Source: Acidisphaera sp. S103
GTDB lineage: Bacteria > Pseudomonadota > Alphaproteobacteria > Acetobacterales > Acetobacteraceae
Assembly (NCBI RefSeq): GCF_009765975.1
Contig: NZ_LMUJ01000051.1
Location: 128,924 to 192,923, forward strand
Length of the DNA stretch: 64,000 nt
Direction: 5' to 3'
Each line of letters starts with the position of its first letter. Positions within the stretch are counted from its first letter, which is position 1. A program made the position numbers and the translations under genes. The notes under the pieces were generated by a model that worked only from the letters and a program-made list of their open reading frames with translations, ran no database searches and was not told the origin of the DNA. This document shows positions 7,859 to 43,803 of this stretch, in pieces.

Positions 7859-9012
7859 TGTCTGAATACTCGCGCTGGGTCGATGCGGACGACCTGCACC
7901 ACGGCGGCGACGGAGGAGGTGACGCACATGAGGACCGTGAGCAGGAAGAGGCCGCCGGTCAGTTCCGGGGTCATGACAATCGGCAATGCCGTCCTGGCGG
8001 TCATCCCGACAACGATAAGACCGATGCCGGCGGCAACGGCGAAGCCGATCACGGCGCTGAGCACCGCCTGGGAGATGATGATTTTGTTGATGTAAAGATT
8101 GGATGAGCCGATAGCGCGCAGCGTGGCGAATTCATTCAGGTGATCCTTGGTGCTGGAATACAAGGTTTGCGCGATGATGACGGTGCCGACGATGGCGCCC
8201 AGCAGCGCGCCGGCAAACAGCGCGGCGCCAGCGCCGGTGCCGAACAGCCAAAAGTTGCGGCTACGGTTGCGGAATTCGTCGGGCGTCAGGACCTCAACCT
8301 TCGACAGTTTCGTCTGCAACTGGTTGCGGACGGCGGCGATATCGGTGTTGGGCGCGAGATTCACCAGCAGATAGGAGACCTTGCCGGGCGGGGTGCCCAT
8401 GTAGGCCTGCGCCCGGGCGAGCGGGGCGAAGACGTAGGGGGTGGTGGTGAAGGAGCGGATGCCGTCGGTGATCTCTGAGATCCGGGCCTTCTGGCCTCGG
8501 ATTTCAGTGGTGTCGCCGAGTTTGGTGATGCCGAGGCGTCCGAAATAGGTGGCGTCGACGGCGACGGCGTTGGGGGATGAGAGGGAGGCGGTATCGCCTT
8601 GGGTGACATTCCAGGGATGCAGTCCGGCGCCGCTTTCATCGGAACCGATGACGAAAACCGGTGTCGTGCCGCCGTTTGGCACTGTCCATTCGGAAAATCC
8701 GATCATCACCGGCGTGGCCTGGCTGACACCCGGGACCGCCAGGGCCTTTGTCCGGTCCTGTGCATCGAGCAGCGAGGGGTCCTCGAAGCATTTGGTTCCA
8801 AACGGAACTATCCAGAGGTCGGCGGGCGCATGATCGATCATTGTGGTGACCATGCGCTCGAAGCTGAGGAACAGGCCCATCTGGATGTTGACGAGAACGA
8901 TGGAGAAGACGATCCCGACGATGGTCGCGATGAAGCGCAGCCTGTCCTGCAGGAGATTCCGCGATGCGATCTTGATGATCAGCGACGTGGACATGGTGGG
9001 GCGCGCTTTCAT
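7855..9012 (-). CDS. ABC transporter permease, DevC/FtsX type
   Basis: A 385-residue four-TM permease with the MacB/FtsX topology. There is one TM near residues 25-50, then a large extracytoplasmic domain (about 50-255) and three C-terminal TM segments (about 265-290, 320-345, 355-380). The N-terminus SLIIKIASRNLLQDRLRF is typical of DevC-like proteins. The start at 9012 overlaps the acyltransferase stop (ATGA); the ATG at 8994 is an alternative. DevC proteins of cyanobacteria export glycolipids with a DevB adaptor, but no DevB-like adaptor gene lies in this operon. Confidence 0.87.
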   Translation of the reverse strand: MKARPTMSTSLIIKIASRNLLQDRLRFIATIVGIVFSIVLVNIQMGLFLSFERMVTTMIDHAPADLWIVPFGTKCFEDPSLLDAQDRTKALAVPGVSQATPVMIGFSEWTVPNGGTTPVFVIGSDESGAGLHPWNVTQGDTASLSSPNAVAVDATYFGRLGITKLGDTTEIRGQKARISEITDGIRSFTTTPYVFAPLARAQAYMGTPPGKVSYLLVNLAPNTDIAAVRNQLQTKLSKVEVLTPDEFRNRSRNFWLFGTGAGAALFAGALLGAIVGTVIIAQTLYSSTKDHLNEFATLRAIGSSNLYINKIIISQAVLSAVIGFAVAAGIGLIVVGMTARTALPIVMTPELTGGLFLLTVLMCVTSSVAAVVQVVRIDPARVFRQ

Positions 9013-10469
9013 ATTGCGACGGCACCTTGTTCGGCGGGCCGTGTGTCGTTTTCAGGGCGACGTGTTGCCTGACGCGGTGGCAGCGTTGCTGTCAGCGAAC
9101 GCCGTTCCGACCCCAGCAGTAACGAACCGAACGGGATGAAACGCATGGCGGCGGTGGTTGCCCAGGCGAGGAGCAGGGTGCCGGCGAGGACGATCATGGC
9201 CTTGGCGAGGGCGAACAGCGCCACGCCCAGCAGGGCGTATTGCAGCCAAACGACGAAGACGTAATGGAACAGATACATGCCGAAGGATTTGCCGGCGAGG
9301 TTGTTCAATATCGGCGACGGCCTGGTGGCGAAGCGCAGGCAGGCCCCCATCACGAAGAAACCACCGCTGGCGCAGGCCAGGACGAACGCGATGTCGACGG
9401 CGACGTTCAGGAGGAGTGGATGGGAGGCGGCGTCGATCATCGCCAGGCCGGAAAGGCCCATCCAGAGGATCTGGAAGCCCACGGCGAGACCCAGCCAGGT
9501 GGCCCAGGAGCGGGCCAGTTTGCCGTCGGGGGCGAGCAGGCCGCGTTCCAGCCCGTAGGCACCCACGGCGAGACCGGCGAGGTAATAGACCACGTAGTGC
9601 AATGGCCGGCAGAACTGGACGGCCAATATGCCGTGATTGGACCAGTTCATCGGCGTAAAGATCATCGCCATGGGGACGTAAACGATGGCGGAGGCGGCGG
9701 TCAGCCCGATGAAGAAGTGGCTGGGATGTGTTTTGGCGGATGCCGTGCGGCGGCCGAGGAAGGTGACGAAGCGGGGTGCGATGCGATACAGGGCCGCGGT
9801 GATGACGGTCAGCGCCAGAAGTTGCCACAGGAACCACATCGGGCCGTTGGGCACGAACGGCAGTGCCCGGTAATGCTGCCAGTAGGCGGCGAGGCTGGGA
9901 TCGGCGGCGGTGACCCGGTAGGCGGGGTAGAGCGCGATCGGCATGAGGACGACCAAGGCGAACACGTATGGTATGCCCAGCCTGGTGAACCGTTCGATGA
10001 GGAACTTCAGCGATCCCTTGCGGGAGAGGCTCGACCAGGTGAACAAAGCCGACAGGAAAAACATCAACGTCATCAAGTAGACGTCCTGCCAGGCACAGAA
10101 TATGTCGAATCCGGACCAGCGATGGCTGTCGACAATGGGGAATGCCCGCCATTCGAACGGTGATTTGTCAAATGGAAACGGCTTGGGACCCAGGAAGCCG
10201 AGATAGGCCAGGAAAGAATGGAAAGCGAGGACGGTGACGATGACCATGCCTCGCATATTATTGAGAGCCAGACTGCATTTAGCCCGAGCGTCACTGCTGG
10301 TTGCGCTGTCGATGGTGGGCGTCGGCCGGGCCGGCGCGACGGGATCACGATCTGTTGCGGTCCTGGTCCGGAACTGCGGGACCGTGCGCGCCATCTCCGG
10401 CATGGTAGCGTGGGGGCGATTGGCGAAAACGAGCGATCGCGCGATCGAGAGGGATCGTTCTATGACCAT
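9009..10469 (-). CDS. Membrane acyltransferase (acyltransferase 3 / OafA-like)
   Basis: A 486-residue multi-spanning membrane protein of the acyltransferase-3 family. These proteins transfer acyl groups to sugars or lipids at the membrane. TM1 begins near residue 72 (NNMRGMVIVTVLAFHSFLAYLGF), with the conserved His in the first helix. A long polar N-terminal stretch (1-70) precedes it, so the true start may be further downstream (ATG codons at residues 23 and 26). The FDIFCAWQDVYLMTLMFFLSALF segment matches the family's second helix. The gene is first in an acyltransferase-permease-ATPase operon with 4-bp overlaps, which suggests that the acylated product is the export substrate (inference). 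Confidence 0.82.
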   Translation of the reverse strand: MVIERSLSIARSLVFANRPHATMPEMARTVPQFRTRTATDRDPVAPARPTPTIDSATSSDARAKCSLALNNMRGMVIVTVLAFHSFLAYLGFLGPKPFPFDKSPFEWRAFPIVDSHRWSGFDIFCAWQDVYLMTLMFFLSALFTWSSLSRKGSLKFLIERFTRLGIPYVFALVVLMPIALYPAYRVTAADPSLAAYWQHYRALPFVPNGPMWFLWQLLALTVITAALYRIAPRFVTFLGRRTASAKTHPSHFFIGLTAASAIVYVPMAMIFTPMNWSNHGILAVQFCRPLHYVVYYLAGLAVGAYGLERGLLAPDGKLARSWATWLGLAVGFQILWMGLSGLAMIDAASHPLLLNVAVDIAFVLACASGGFFVMGACLRFATRPSPILNNLAGKSFGMYLFHYVFVVWLQYALLGVALFALAKAMIVLAGTLLLAWATTAAMRFIPFGSLLLGSERRSLTATLPPRQATRRPENDTRPAEQGAVAI

Positions 10470-10615
10470 GACGGCACCGGAAAACGCGTGTCCCGGCCTG
10501 AGGCTGTGCCGGCGAAATCGCTGGAGGCCGCCGAGCGATCGAGGCCGTGTCTTGTTGCTGCCGGCAAAGCGTCGTGGGAGCCCTGATCGAGCACGCGGAA
10601 CCGGTCGTCGGTCAT
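10460..10615 (-). CDS. Small 51-residue protein, possible coupled leader
   Basis: This short frame starts with an ATG at 10615, has a good AAGGA Shine-Dalgarno 7 bases upstream, and ends 10 bp inside the acyltransferase gene. The protein begins MTDDRFRVLDQG, is hydrophilic and rich in Ser/Ala/Arg/Asp, and has no recognised domain, signal peptide or TM segment. The strong ribosome site and the overlap suggest translation coupled to the acyltransferase. A non-functional upstream ORF cannot be excluded. Confidence 0.4.
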   Translation of the reverse strand: MTDDRFRVLDQGSHDALPAATRHGLDRSAASSDFAGTASGRDTRFPVPSWS

Positions 10616-10651
10616 AGGCAATCCTTTTCGCATCGTAAGAGCGTAACGCAT

Positions 10652-11043
10652 ATCTTGGGACGACGTTGCCGAATGAGTATCGGAATCATCTATTAGGGAA
10701 ATTATTTGCCGGTAGTTTTGGCGTTACCTACCGATTTCATCGGCTTAGGTGCTGTTTTTGCTGGATCTGGTGAGTTGCAATCCCGGGTTTCACTTAGTTG
10801 TTTGTTGTAAAGTTAATGAATCGCGCGAAAGTGACTGTGCGATGACGGTGACTGCTGTTTGTCCTGTTGCCGGGATCGTGATGTCTGGACTTTTCTTAAG
10901 GCCCGAGCGCACGATGGAAGGCAACCGCCGCTATCCGGGGAGAGTTTCAGCATCAGGCGTTGTACGCATGCTCGGTTTTCGCCGGTCCTGGAACGGGATC
11001 GGGTCGTTCTTTTGCCCGGAATGCATGGAGAGGCCATTTCACG
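10652..11043. promoter_or_regulatory. Divergent intergenic region, AT-richer, probable promoters
   Basis: 392 bp between two divergent transcription units. The part at about 10670-10830 is clearly richer in A+T than the flanking genes (for example TATTAGGGAAATTATTTGCC), as expected for promoters. I cannot assign a specific -35/-10 pair or operator. No gene is supported; open frames here lack ribosome sites and domains. Confidence 0.45.
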
Positions 11044-39825: not shown

Positions 39826-40590
39826 CTAGCCGTCCCAGACGCTGCTGGGCATCGGCAGCTTGGCGAACGCGGAGTCGTCCAGGGTCACGACCGGGGTGAT
39901 TCCGGCCATTCCCAGCAGCATGAACCATTGGCGGACGTGCTGGCCGCAGTGCCAGGTGGTGCGCTCCATCACCTCATGCAGGAGCTGCGGGCCGTAGTAG
40001 GTCTGGACGATCTGTTGCCCGGTCTTGTCGGTTTTCGGGTCCCACCAAGCGTGCATCGCCGCCAGCACCTGCTGGCCGTAGGCGGCGATCGAGGCACTGG
40101 TTTTCTGGTCCGGCGATGGTCCGTTGGTCAGCATATCGTTGATCAGCGTCGCGCCGGCCGCGACCTCCAGCAGGCCTTCGGGGATACGGAACAGATGATG
40201 GCTCAGCGCCAGATAGGTGCGCGGGCGGTTGGGGACCTCGGTGGAGAGCAGCGAGTCAGGCATCTGCGGGACGATCTGGATGGCGGTACGGACGAACAGG
40301 TCCAGCCGTTCCATCAACTGGGCGGGGGACAGGACGGGACCGGTCGCCTCATTCAGTCCGAGGAACTTCACGACGTGGCCGATATTCTGGGCGAAAATCC
40401 ATTCGTCGCCGCGCGACAGCACGGGAATGGAGCGGGCGCCGAGACGGCGCAGTTCATTCATCCCGTCAGGGTCGGTCAGAATATTGATAGACTTGAACTC
40501 GATCGCACGGACCGAAAGAAACTCTTTGAGTTTCAGGCAGCTTGTTCAGCCAGGCTGCCAGAAGACGTTCAGTGTCGTGTCACCCTGCAT
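39826..40590 (-). CDS. Glutaredoxin-DinB fusion with in-frame TGA (candidate selenoprotein)
   Basis: Read through one TGA, this is a 254-codon protein. The start ATG 40590 has an AGGGAG ribosome site 9 bases upstream and lies 25 bp after hyuA. Residues 1-75 form a glutaredoxin-like domain: LNVFWQPG, then the TGA at codon 15 (40546-40548), then TSCLKLKEFLSV, and the cis-Pro segment ARSIPVLSRGDEW. The TGA stands exactly where the first Cys of CxxC belongs; Cys18 is the second. Residues about 80-254 form a DinB helical bundle with metal-type His residues (LSHHLFRIPEG and WHCGQHVRQW). Reading TGA as selenocysteine gives a UxxC redox site. If instead it is a stop, only the DinB part could be made from ATG 40461, which lacks a clear ribosome site. 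The frame after the TGA is intact, arguing against decay. Confidence 0.75.
40498..40548 (-). promoter_or_regulatory. UGA codon and candidate SECIS hairpins
   Basis: On the coding strand the UGA (40548-40546) is followed by a perfect 7-bp hairpin GAAACUC-AAA-GAGUUUC (40534-40518), whose loop starts 18 nt after the UGA. A second, weaker 7-bp stem UUCGGUC-CGUGC-GAUCGAG (40516-40498) includes two G.U pairs, with its loop 36 nt after the UGA and a G in loop position 2. Bacterial SECIS elements usually need a G in the first two loop bases. The first hairpin is stronger but lacks that G; the second has it but is at the distance limit. Confidence 0.35.
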
Positions 40591-40615
40591 GGTGTCGATC
40601 TCCCTGAAATCCCGG

Positions 40616-42670
40616 TTACGCCGGAACCGGCGGCACGTCAATCGCCACATCCAGCCAGCCGCGCGGATCAAACCGAGCGACGTCGTGCGGGCGGAGGAGG
40701 ACGGTGGTGGTGTCGGATTCGATGACCGCCGGCCCGCGGATGATTTGATCCCGTGCTAATCGGAGGAAATCGAACACTGGTACCCGGGTCCAGCCGCCCA
40801 AGTACACTTGCCGTTCGGCCTTGGGTTCCGCGGCCGTGGACGGTGCGTCGGCTACCACGCCGGCTACCTGCGGCAAGCGCCCGATCGCCGACACGCGGGC
40901 GTTAACGAGCACCGCTTCCTGATCCCTTAGGGCGTAGGTGTAGAGGCGTTCGTGCGCGGCGTGGAACCGGTCGGCCAGGATCGCCGGCAGGGCTGCATCG
41001 TCCCAAGCGATGCCATCCAATGGGACGGGGATTTCGAACACCTGCTCGCCGTAGCGCATGTCGGCGGAGCGGTGCAGCGTCACGGGTCCGTCAAACCAAC
41101 CGAGCCGGTTTCGGCCTTCGGTCTCCATCGTCGCGAAGGCTGCTTTCAGGGCGGTGATGTCGATGCCGCCGGATTGACCCTGGCTGCGGCTGAGTTCGAC
41201 GCGCAGGTCGGTGTTCAGCATGCCCCAGGCGGACAGGACCGAGGCGGCGACCGGTACCACCACCCGGCTGATACCCAGTTCCGCGGCGACCGCGGTGATG
41301 TGCAGGCCGGCCGCGCCGCCGAATGCCAGCAGCGTGTAGCCACGCGGATCGACGCCACGCCGCACGGTGGCGACGCGGACGCCATCCGCCATCCGGCTGT
41401 TGACGACGCGATGGATGCCAGCGGCAGCCTGATCCGTCTCTATTCCCAGTTCCGCCGCCAGCTTTGCCATCACTTCGGTCGCGGCTTCCAGGTCCAGACT
41501 GCGCCGTCCGCCGAGGAAGTTGCTCGGATCGAGGTAGCCCAGCACAAGGTTGGCGTCGGTTACCGTCGCCCCGGCGCCGCCCTGGCCGTAGCAGGCGGGG
41601 CCGGGCATGGCACCGGCACTTTCGGGGCCGACGGCGAGCAACCCCGATCGGTCCAGTTTGCCGATCGATCCGCCACCTGCACCCAGGGTCACGATATCAA
41701 GGCTGGGTAGCGCGATGCGGGCGCTGGCGACCGACTTGTCGCCGGACAATGTCGGCTGCCCGTCACGCACCACGGCGATGTCGGTGGACGTGCCGCCCAT
41801 GTCGAAGCTGATCACGTTGGGTGCCAGGCCGTTGCGCGTCAGGGCGACCGAAGCCGCGACGCCGCCGGCCGGACCGGACAGCGCGGTGCCGGCGGCGAGC
41901 CGTGTCGCCTCCGCCACCGAGGCGACGCCGCCATGCGACAGGATGACCAGCAGTTCGCCGTCGTATCCAGCTTCTCGCAACCGGGACTGCAGCCGCCCGA
42001 GATAATTCTGGATCACCGGGCCCACGGCCGCGTTGGCGACGGTGGTGGAGAACCGCTCAAATTCCTTTATCTGCGGCAGCACGTCGGACGATGTCGTGAC
42101 ATAGGCACCGGGCAGGCGGTCGCGCACGGCGGCGGCGGCACGCTGCTCATGGTCCGGATTGCGCCAGGCGTGCAGGAAGCAAATCGCCACGGCCTGGACA
42201 TCGGCGTCGCGCAGGCGGTCGATCGCGGCCTGCAGCGAGGCCGGGTCGAGGGCGATTTCCACCGATCCGTCGGCTCGGATCCGTTCCGTGACCGGCAGGC
42301 GCAGGCGGCGGGGCACCAGCGGGGCAGGGGGCGTCATGCGCAGGTTGTAGCGATCGGGTTTCAGGCCCTCGCGCATTTCGATGACGTCGCGATGGCCTTC
42401 GGTGGTTAGCAGGCCGACCCGGGCGCTTTTGCCTTCGAGCAGGGCGTTGGTGGCGACGGTGGTCCCATGCACGATGCGGGATGTGGTGCGCAGCAGATCG
42501 GCCGGGGCCAGGCCGAGGCGTTCGGCCGCCAGGGCGATCCCGTCCAGCACGCCGTCGGATTGATCGGCCGGCGTTGTCGCCGCCTTGGCGATGACGGTCT
42601 GTCCGCCGGCGGTGGAGACGACGATATCGGTGAAGGTGCCGCCGACGTCGATACCGATGGTGATGCTCAT
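40616..42670 (-). CDS. hyuA: Hydantoinase/oxoprolinase subunit A (HyuA)
   Basis: A 684-residue ATP-dependent hydantoinase/5-oxoprolinase A-type subunit. The start ATG 42670 overlaps the MBL gene stop (ATGA). The actin-like ATP site ITIGIDVGGTFTDIVV opens the protein, then RIVHGTTVATNALLEGKSARVGLLTTEGHRDVIEMREG. The central domain includes ISFDMGGTSTDIAVVRDGQP and LGAGGGSIGKLD. It ends with the ALRDQEAVLVNARVSAIG region. With HyuB it would hydrolyse a hydantoin, N-methylhydantoin or oxoproline-like lactam with ATP. An open frame continues upstream to 43543 but is out of family and antiparallel to nothing useful; it overlaps the real MBL gene. Confidence 0.92.
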   Translation of the reverse strand: MSITIGIDVGGTFTDIVVSTAGGQTVIAKAATTPADQSDGVLDGIALAAERLGLAPADLLRTTSRIVHGTTVATNALLEGKSARVGLLTTEGHRDVIEMREGLKPDRYNLRMTPPAPLVPRRLRLPVTERIRADGSVEIALDPASLQAAIDRLRDADVQAVAICFLHAWRNPDHEQRAAAAVRDRLPGAYVTTSSDVLPQIKEFERFSTTVANAAVGPVIQNYLGRLQSRLREAGYDGELLVILSHGGVASVAEATRLAAGTALSGPAGGVAASVALTRNGLAPNVISFDMGGTSTDIAVVRDGQPTLSGDKSVASARIALPSLDIVTLGAGGGSIGKLDRSGLLAVGPESAGAMPGPACYGQGGAGATVTDANLVLGYLDPSNFLGGRRSLDLEAATEVMAKLAAELGIETDQAAAGIHRVVNSRMADGVRVATVRRGVDPRGYTLLAFGGAAGLHITAVAAELGISRVVVPVAASVLSAWGMLNTDLRVELSRSQGQSGGIDITALKAAFATMETEGRNRLGWFDGPVTLHRSADMRYGEQVFEIPVPLDGIAWDDAALPAILADRFHAAHERLYTYALRDQEAVLVNARVSAIGRLPQVAGVVADAPSTAAEPKAERQVYLGGWTRVPVFDFLRLARDQIIRGPAVIESDTTTVLLRPHDVARFDPRGWLDVAIDVPPVPA

Positions 42671-43803
42671 GCGGTGAAGGTGAACTTGCTGCCGGTGGTG
42701 CAGAGGATGAGTTTCTCCGGCATTTCCCGCTTGGCGGTTTCCACGAAGTTGCTGCCGCTGCAATGCATCGGGATCAGGTGCTCGATGTCGAACTTGCTCA
42801 ATTCGGTCATGATGCTCTCCAGGTAGGGCTGTGACGCCGGCGCGAGGTGGAAACCGCCGCACAACGCGAGGATTTTCTCGATGCCGGTGATTTCCCGGGC
42901 GCGTTGCAGCGTGTTGATGATGCCCGCGTGGCCGCAGGACGTGATCACAACCAGCCCGCGATCGCCGACCTGGAAGCAGGTCGCGTGTTCGTGCCAGTGC
43001 TGGTCGGGGACGGGGTTGCCGGAGAGTTCGTCGGCGGTGAAATGATGGTCCTCGTCGTATTTGAATGTGTCGCAGCCGACACCGTCTTTCTCGCCGTAGA
43101 CAACGAAGGTGTTGGGCAGCACGTGCTCGATGCTGGTGCGGGGGATGATTCCGGTGGTGAAGGCGTGATCCTCGATGATGATCGGCAGTTCCGACAGGAT
43201 CGGCTGCACGTTCAGTGCCTTCAATTCGCGACGGTCCAACACGCCGTAGGGGGCGAAGCTGCCATCGGCCTGCTGCTGTTCGCGACGGCAGAACGTATCT
43301 TCGCCGCCGGTGTAGAGCATGATGTTGTCGTGCATGCCGGTGCGATTGGCTTTCAGGAATCCGACCAGGCCGCCCATGTGGTCGATATGCGCATGGCTGA
43401 GGATCAGCGCGTCCAGGCTGTTCGGGTCGATTTTCAGCAACTTCAAGTTGTTGGTCAGCACATCCGGGGTGAAGCCGAAATCCAGCAGATAGCGGCGGGT
43501 TTCGTTGGCCTTGGTGGACACCAGGTGCAGCGACAGGCCCCATTGGCTTTCCAGCGTCTTGTCGCCGAACGCGGCCGGGGAGCCGACGCGCTGCACCCCC
43601 ACGCCCGGCGGCTGGTCTTTGGAGATGAAAATGTCATGGCTGTTGTCGATGACCGCTTGGATGGTCAGCGTATCCACGACGGGTGGCGTGATATGCACCG
43701 GCATGGCGGCGTTGGCGCGATCCATGACGCCGTAGCAGGCGAGAAACGATCCTGTGGCGGCGGCGGAGCGCATGAAGCTGCGGCGCCCGATCGGCGATGG
43801 CAT
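42667..43803 (-). CDS. Tat-exported MBL-fold metallohydrolase
   Basis: A 378-residue metallo-beta-lactamase-fold protein with a twin-arginine signal (GRRSFMRSAAATGSFLACYG, cleavage near ANA). The zinc motif HAHIDH is at residues 137-142, with a distal metal His in ITSCGHAGI and a later Asp/His-containing ALCGGFHLAP. The pattern matches the DHPA-synthase-like group (Tm0207-type), often annotated as 7,8-dihydropterin-6-yl-methyl-4-(beta-D-ribofuranosyl)aminobenzene 5'-phosphate synthase. The signal puts it in the periplasm, so the substrate is probably different. It lies between GNAT and hyuA in the operon. Confidence 0.88.
   Translation of the reverse strand: MPSPIGRRSFMRSAAATGSFLACYGVMDRANAAMPVHITPPVVDTLTIQAVIDNSHDIFISKDQPPGVGVQRVGSPAAFGDKTLESQWGLSLHLVSTKANETRRYLLDFGFTPDVLTNNLKLLKIDPNSLDALILSHAHIDHMGGLVGFLKANRTGMHDNIMLYTGGEDTFCRREQQQADGSFAPYGVLDRRELKALNVQPILSELPIIIEDHAFTTGIIPRTSIEHVLPNTFVVYGEKDGVGCDTFKYDEDHHFTADELSGNPVPDQHWHEHATCFQVGDRGLVVITSCGHAGIINTLQRAREITGIEKILALCGGFHLAPASQPYLESIMTELSKFDIEHLIPMHCSGSNFVETAKREMPEKLILCTTGSKFTFTA

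Follow-up and report, generated by a model that had tools for sequence, protein, structure and literature searches.

The window analyzed here, 64,000 nucleotides of a contig from Acidisphaera sp. S103 (NZ_LMUJ01000051.1, positions 128,924 to 192,923), carries on its minus strand a gene for a glutaredoxin-DinB (Grx-DinB) fusion protein (window positions 39826 to 40590) with an in-frame TGA in the active-site motif of the glutaredoxin. Based on the selenocysteine (Sec) machinery of the genome, the alternation of Cys and TGA among homologues, and a signal in the RNA downstream of the TGA, we conclude that this gene very probably encodes a selenoprotein, and the in silico case for this is strong. 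The same three lines of evidence support the first-pass annotation of this stretch, which had proposed a Sec-containing Grx-DinB protein. In the mechanism that we propose, SelB and Sec-tRNA-Sec would bind a stem-loop 3' of the UGA, and Sec would be placed at the catalytic position of the glutaredoxin UxxC motif, giving the full-length fusion protein.

The in-frame TGA and the selenocysteine machinery

The reading frame begins with an ATG at 40590 on the minus strand, 9 nt downstream of the sequence AGGGAG (40600 to 40605), which is a likely ribosome-binding site, and ends with a TAG stop codon at 39828 to 39826. Its sole interruption is the TGA at 40548 to 40546, and if this codon is read as Sec, the product has 254 residues. 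The TGA is codon 15 and occupies the position of the first Cys of the glutaredoxin CxxC motif, which would therefore read UTSC. The start, the 9-base spacing, the frame open to 39826, and the placement of the TGA on the first Cys had all been proposed from the letters of the window, and each is borne out on the minus strand.

The genome (8.37 Mb in 116 contigs) contains all four components of the Sec machinery for which the first-pass annotation had suggested a search (selA, selB, selC, and selD), each with a score above its curated cut-off, and the absence of Sec genes that it had named as a refuting outcome is thus not observed. The tRNA-Sec scores 71.3 bits (cut-off, 47), is called as tRNA-SeC with a TCA anticodon by ARAGORN, and adjoins selA (549 bits; cut-off, 267.9; contig C113). 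The selB match (382 bits; cut-off, 242.25) is on contig C33, and the selD match (289 bits on TIGR00476; cut-off, 125) is on contig C39. The selD gene (locus L096, positions 8919 to 11039) is a 706-residue fusion with an N-terminal pyridine nucleotide-disulfide oxidoreductase domain. It is the least certain part of the machinery, because the fusion also scores 493.7 on TIGR04369 ("fusion_not_SelD"; cut-off, 700), a model of SelD-related fusions that are not SelD. The selA gene and tRNA-Sec (locus L094) lie beside an ftsZ-ftsA-ftsQ-ddl cell-division cluster, with selB on a different contig. Eight members of the genus (G004, G007, G009, G011, G016, G022, G026, and G032) have two SelB matches over the cut-off, the second of which is partial in G004, G009, and G026, while the Acidisphaera sp. 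S103 genome has one. In the two genomes in which such pairs were compared (G011 and G022; loci L141 to L144), the paired SelB proteins are just 41% identical.

A genus-level search of 59 genomes, of which 33 belong to the genus (that of Acidisphaera sp. S103 included), found the Grx-DinB gene in 26, namely, 25 of the genus and one other, G045. The aligned codon is TGA in 27 of the 28 homologue loci, and the remaining locus (L017) is a fragment that begins downstream of that codon. This bears out the earlier argument that a chance nonsense mutation was unlikely. The protein downstream of the TGA is conserved among these homologues (47 to 85% identity), as are the FWQP motif ahead of the TGA and the TSC that follows it. 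For relatives, tRNA-Sec was counted only at 68 bits or more, because the cut-off is also exceeded by matches of 47 to 50 bits, of which the one examined (L002, from the Acidisphaera sp. S103 genome) is a tRNA-Ser. By this count, tRNA-Sec or selB is found in 24 of the 25 gene-carrying genomes of the genus and in 5 of the 8 that lack the gene (Fisher P = 0.036), the 3 that have neither gene nor machinery being G006, G008, and G025. Three observations weigh against a strict association. G024 (68% complete) has the gene but neither selB nor a tRNA-Sec of at least 68 bits; G004 and G026 have selB over the cut-off but no tRNA-Sec of at least 68 bits; and G045 (77% complete), in which the TGA copy lies on a 10.9-kb contig, has no selA, selB, or tRNA-Sec over the cut-off.

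Alternation of selenocysteine and cysteine codons

A profile search of a wider sample of 385 genomes of the class yielded 33 copies of the gene in 32 genomes, 19 copies with one TGA and 14 without a stop. The codon at the site is TGA in the 19 and TGC or TGT in the 14, and no other residue and no other stop is found there. Cys and TGA thus alternate at exactly this codon, which is the pattern that the first-pass annotation had proposed looking for, and none of the homologue copies read has unrelated stops elsewhere, which it had named as a refuting outcome. The presence of selA follows the codon: it is over the cut-off in 18 of the 19 TGA genomes (the sole exception is G045), in 3 of the 13 genomes with only a Cys copy, and in 35 of the 353 without the gene (Fisher P = 1e-15 for TGA genomes versus all others and 4e-5 for TGA versus Cys genomes, both uncorrected for relatedness). 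In two genomes, the TGA form of the gene is on the same contig as selA, at a distance of ~8 to 9 kb (L104 in G127, contig C44, and L105 in G087, contig C48). One genome, G340, holds one Sec copy and one Cys copy (contigs C24 and C25), which the tree puts in separate branches.

In a wider sample of 398 genomes of the phylum, matches were found in only 2, that of Acidisphaera sp. S103 and G100, both of them already in hand from the earlier searches. Relatives are nevertheless found on beta-proteobacterial plasmids: 13 plasmid records match (Variovorax, Caballeronia, Roseomonas, and Rhizobium), and the 4 records that were read are Cys forms. The phylogeny does not establish a single origin of Sec: it needs 2 changes, 6% of the 200 bootstrap replicates recover one origin, and a trio of Cys copies that sits within a group of Sec copies may reflect reversion.

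The RNA signal downstream of the TGA

Over the ~60 nt 3' of the TGA, synonymous conservation is raised and folding is nonrandom in Sec copies but not in Cys copies. Among the 22 full-length copies from the genus, the 15-codon window with the highest synonymous identity begins at codon +5 relative to the TGA (0.889, versus 0.537 beyond codon +20). In the Sec copies of the class (n = 17), synonymous identity over codons +5 to +17 is 0.714 versus 0.489 (permutation P = 5e-5), while in the Cys copies (n = 13) it is 0.522 versus 0.470 (P = 0.21), with 26 of 125 windows as high.

Two hairpins are predicted in this region. Hairpin 1 (40518 to 40534, minus strand) spans nt 15 to 31 counted from the U of the UGA and has an AAA loop, and hairpin 2 (40498 to 40516, minus strand) spans nt 33 to 51, with the loop CGUGC at 40505 to 40509. 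The set of sequences used for RNA analysis was widened to 40 Sec copies because the first 25 (those of the genus and G045) showed no compensatory change, and 13 Cys copies served for comparison (L088 was left out of the recoding test). As the null model for folding, every gene was recoded with its own synonymous codons, with P ≤ 0.05 taken as significant. Of the 40 Sec copies, 34 exceed the recoding expectation for hairpin-2 pairing, 28 for hairpin-2 stability, and 31 for hairpin-1 stability; of the 13 Cys copies, the corresponding numbers are 0, 1, and 1. Across the 40 Sec copies, pairing is kept in 97.1% of cells for hairpin 2 (nt 33 to 39 with nt 45 to 51), three of whose pairs have changed on both sides, and in 79.8% for hairpin 1, none of whose pairs has done so. 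In the covariation control, none of 500 shuffles reaches the observed score. The sequence CCGTG at nt 39 to 43 is identical in all 40 copies. The pattern TGA-N31-CGRYCCGTGNGRTYG matches in 33 of 193 genomes (its backward control gives one match in total). In 29 of these genomes, the Grx-DinB gene had previously been located at the matching site, and in the other 4 (G789, G813, G825, and G849), the match is also to a Grx-DinB gene with the TGA. In the Acidisphaera sp. S103 genome, the single match is the Grx-DinB gene itself, and the pattern was found in no second gene.

Several results count against this element or temper it. Five of 140 windows equal the conservation of the target in the class Sec set. 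The covariation is modest, in that 64 of 500 shuffles match the number of two-sided pairs and that a register shifted by +1 or +2 has more two-sided cells than the proposed one (11 versus 9), and RNAalifold found no compensatory pair among the first 25 sequences. Compared with dinucleotide shuffles, single folds have only a slight advantage (z = -0.7 to -1.6 for 5 sequences), and 9 of the 40 Sec copies show a hairpin-2 pairing probability of <0.2 when the 61-nt element is folded, other structures competing with the hairpin there.

These data bear on three explanations that do without Sec. In the first, the gene is a pseudogene or its TGA a sequencing error, codon 15 having become a stop by chance. 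A single stop in a single assembly would look no different, and a recently dead gene may keep its start and its frame. However, the TGA is found at the same codon in 25 genus genomes (that of Acidisphaera sp. S103 included), in G045, and in 17 more genomes of the class, among them G100, a single-contig assembly; the protein sequence is maintained beyond the TGA to the degree given above; and the TGA tracks selA. This pattern of TGA and Cys codons in many genomes in practice refutes the pseudogene reading, which we consider extremely improbable. The gene could also encode a DinB-type protein alone, translated from an internal start, with the upstream part a leader or a relic. An open reading frame (ORF) of this kind exists (39826 to 40461; 211 residues from the ATG at 40461), but the residue at its start is Met in just 2 of 23 aligned rows and is otherwise Leu, Val, Ala, or Pro. 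Moreover, FWQP, TSC, and the hairpins around the TGA are conserved, and Cys copies read straight through, all of which makes an internal start very unlikely.

The last of these explanations takes the UGA to be translated as another amino acid, by read-through or reassignment, or to serve regulated termination, and in its favor, the identity of the residue at the UGA is deduced from nucleotide sequence rather than from direct protein evidence. Still, all 14 class homologues that lack the TGA have Cys at the site, the Sec machinery is found together with the TGA, and UGA is a normal stop codon in this same gene family. Since 7 of the 22 full-length copies with a listed stop codon end in TGA, UGA is not generally reassigned, and we judge a decoding as anything but Sec to have very little probability.

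Within the selenoprotein reading, it must also be decided which hairpin would be the selenocysteine insertion sequence (SECIS). The bacterial SECIS model outlined in a 2026 review specifies a loop of 3 to 9 nt on a stem of 4 to 16 bp, 16 to 37 nt from the UGA, with a G within the first two loop positions and a minimum free energy of -7.5 kcal/mol or lower (PMC13188914). Hairpin 2 agrees with the rules for loop, stem, G, and spacing (a 5-nt CGUGN loop with G second, 7 bp, and 36 nt), whereas hairpin 1, with a loop of AAA or AAG, fails the rule for the loop G. A point against hairpin 2 is that in the window copy, this hairpin alone has a free energy of -6.2 kcal/mol, weaker than the model requires; the median over the 40 Sec copies is -8.3, and the whole 61-nt element of the window copy reaches -15.5. 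The first-pass annotation had called the SECIS evidence mixed. Its observation that the AAA-loop hairpin lacks the loop G stands. The AAA-loop hairpin is not the better candidate, and hairpin 2, which it had called the weaker one, is likely to be the SECIS. Hairpin 1 was rejected as first choice for its missing loop G and its lower conservation.

The two hairpins may nevertheless work together. The GU of the SECIS loop is at nt 41 and 42 in Sec copies of Grx-DinB and at nt 23 and 24 in the Sec-containing formate dehydrogenase (FDH), Sec-FdhA, of relatives. This offset of 18 nt is close to the 17-nt length of hairpin 1, and we therefore infer that hairpin 1 is a structured spacer: it would pack the extra nucleotides between the UGA and the hairpin-2 loop, and hairpin 2 (7 bp, CGUGN, with GU in the loop) would be the contact for SelB. 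The opposite assignment, in which SelB contacts the AAA loop of hairpin 1 (nt 22 to 24) and hairpin 2 is accessory, draws on the fact that this loop sits where the GU loop is found in the Sec-FdhA of relatives and on the stability of hairpin 1 relative to its recoded versions. Against it stand the lower pairing of hairpin 1 and its lack of two-sided changes, compared with the pairing and three covarying pairs of hairpin 2, and the invariance of CCGTG in hairpin 2. We regard it as unlikely.

The protein, its neighborhood, and its relation to known systems

The glutaredoxin domain comprises residues 9 to 62 (40405 to 40566, minus strand) and matches Pfam PF00462 with an E value of 4.6e-8 (33.6 bits; cut-off, 22.9). 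The nearest solved structure by sequence is 7c10 (E = 8e-8). Residues 106 to 221 (39928 to 40275, minus strand) form a DinB/YfiT-like domain by fold: the top Foldseek match is 6iz2, the DinB/YfiT protein DR0053 (E = 1.1e-4; template-modeling [TM] score by target, 0.64; root mean square deviation, 7.8). Weighing against this assignment, the DinB_2 model (PF12867) scores only 19.5 bits, below its Pfam cut-off of 24.8. Further Foldseek matches are glutathione S-transferases and the glutaredoxin-like structures 3zit, 1h75, and 7c10, over 70 to 81 columns. The AlphaFold model, built with 14 sequences, shows a thioredoxin-like part and helices at a middling predicted local distance difference test score (75.2). 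Cys or Sec15, Ser17, Cys18, and Pro56 are present in 58 of 58 aligned rows, and by its position, Pro56 is the probable cis-Pro. The claim that Cys18, the cis-Pro segment, and the DinB bundle are intact therefore stands for Cys18 and Pro56, and for the DinB part it stands by fold but not by the DinB_2 cut-off.

His132, His214, and His218 in the DinB part are likewise invariant in all 58 rows. The DinB part, which shows the three-His pattern of such enzymes, is probably a metal-dependent thiol transferase. Taken together with the glutaredoxin domain and with the fold and sequence matches, the His triad leads us to propose that a Sec-glutaredoxin is paired here with a metal-dependent thiol S-transferase and that the selenol/thiol pair of the glutaredoxin would most likely reduce or resolve a thiol adduct or mixed disulfide handled by the DinB part. 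The host bacteria are expected to use glutathione. Two other residues differ in frequency between Sec and Cys copies. All 40 Sec copies have Arg28, which is encoded in the loop of hairpin 2, but only 1 of the 18 Cys copies does; Ser26 is present in 39 of the Sec copies and 4 of the Cys copies. In Sec copies, the protein residues LS[VI]R appear to be fixed by the RNA signal.

Three genes on the same strand lie ahead of the Grx-DinB gene, encoding hydantoinase B-like, GNAT, and hydantoinase A-like proteins. The last of these (hydantoinase/oxoprolinase A-like; 40616 to 43543, minus strand) is separated from the Grx-DinB start codon by 25 nt and is a possible operon partner in this genome. A conserved operon partner was sought and rejected: the hydantoinase A-like cluster is found in just 3 of 19 neighborhoods (the window plus 18 loci), and apart from ORFs that overlap the gene itself, no cluster of flanking ORFs is found in more than 4 of the 19. 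Plasmid copies are located among catabolic genes, which is suggestive only.

Among the closest known systems are the Cys forms of Grx-DinB, annotated on plasmids as "glutaredoxin domain-containing" or "DinB family protein," with at least 97% of the length matched at 31 to 40% identity. They differ in having Cys in place of Sec (in the 4 of 13 plasmid records read), and no SECIS-like hairpin 2 was found in the 13 Cys copies of the class that were tested. Known selenoprotein glutaredoxins (PF00462, UxxC; from Clostridium, Geobacter, and others) likewise have a thioredoxin fold with Sec first in UxxC, and 7c10, the best solved sequence match to Grx-DinB, is titled "Dithiol cGrx1." In contrast with these, the glutaredoxin described here is fused to a DinB/YfiT-like domain and occurs in Alphaproteobacteria. 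Members of the DinB/YfiT S-transferase-like superfamily include the bacillithiol and mycothiol S-transferases, and the H132...H214xxxH218 arrangement mirrors H67, H160, and H164, the three His residues given for BstA (PMC5815605). Here, however, a seleno-glutaredoxin is N-terminal to the DinB part, of which the metal and the activity are predicted.

Table 1 of the 2026 review lists 119 prokaryotic selenoprotein families and subfamilies, including Grx, UXX-star, and several fusions, and a Grx-DinB fusion is absent from that table (PMC13188914). No NCBIfam model (June 2026) scores over its cut-off, the Grx and UXX-star models falling below theirs, and among the open-license PMC papers retrieved, screened by title and start of the abstract, none is on a Grx-DinB selenoprotein. 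Judged by domain architecture, Grx-DinB is a new subfamily of predicted selenoproteins. It adds to the 2026 list a putative Sec-containing enzyme with a domain pairing missing from it, it would be a naturally occurring example of an RNA element that constrains the residues of an enzyme, and its Sec/Cys pairs and two-hairpin element are directly testable with a reporter.

A 2006 survey named FdhA as the sole selenoprotein in those Alphaproteobacteria that were known at the time to decode Sec (PMC1794560). Sec-FdhA would share with Grx-DinB its dependence on selA, selB, and selC, and it also has GU in the apical loop of its SECIS. The two occur largely in different genomes: the class sample includes 56 genomes with selA, among which the Sec form of Grx-DinB is found in 18, Sec-FdhA (counted as TIGR01553 alone) in 14, both in 3, and neither in 27, the last likely having other selenoproteins or FDH types. 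Since 18 selA-positive genomes have Grx-DinB in its Sec form, compared with 14 that have Sec-FdhA, Grx-DinB provides a reason for retaining the Sec machinery without an FDH of this type. We tentatively extend this to a broader proposal, which is possible but rather doubtful as a whole: that the Grx-DinB element is a distinct two-hairpin SECIS whose spacer hairpin shifts the GU loop for SelB 18 nt beyond that of FDH, that Grx-DinB is a main reason many Alphaproteobacteria keep Sec, and perhaps that in some members of the genus one of the two divergent SelB paralogues reads this element.
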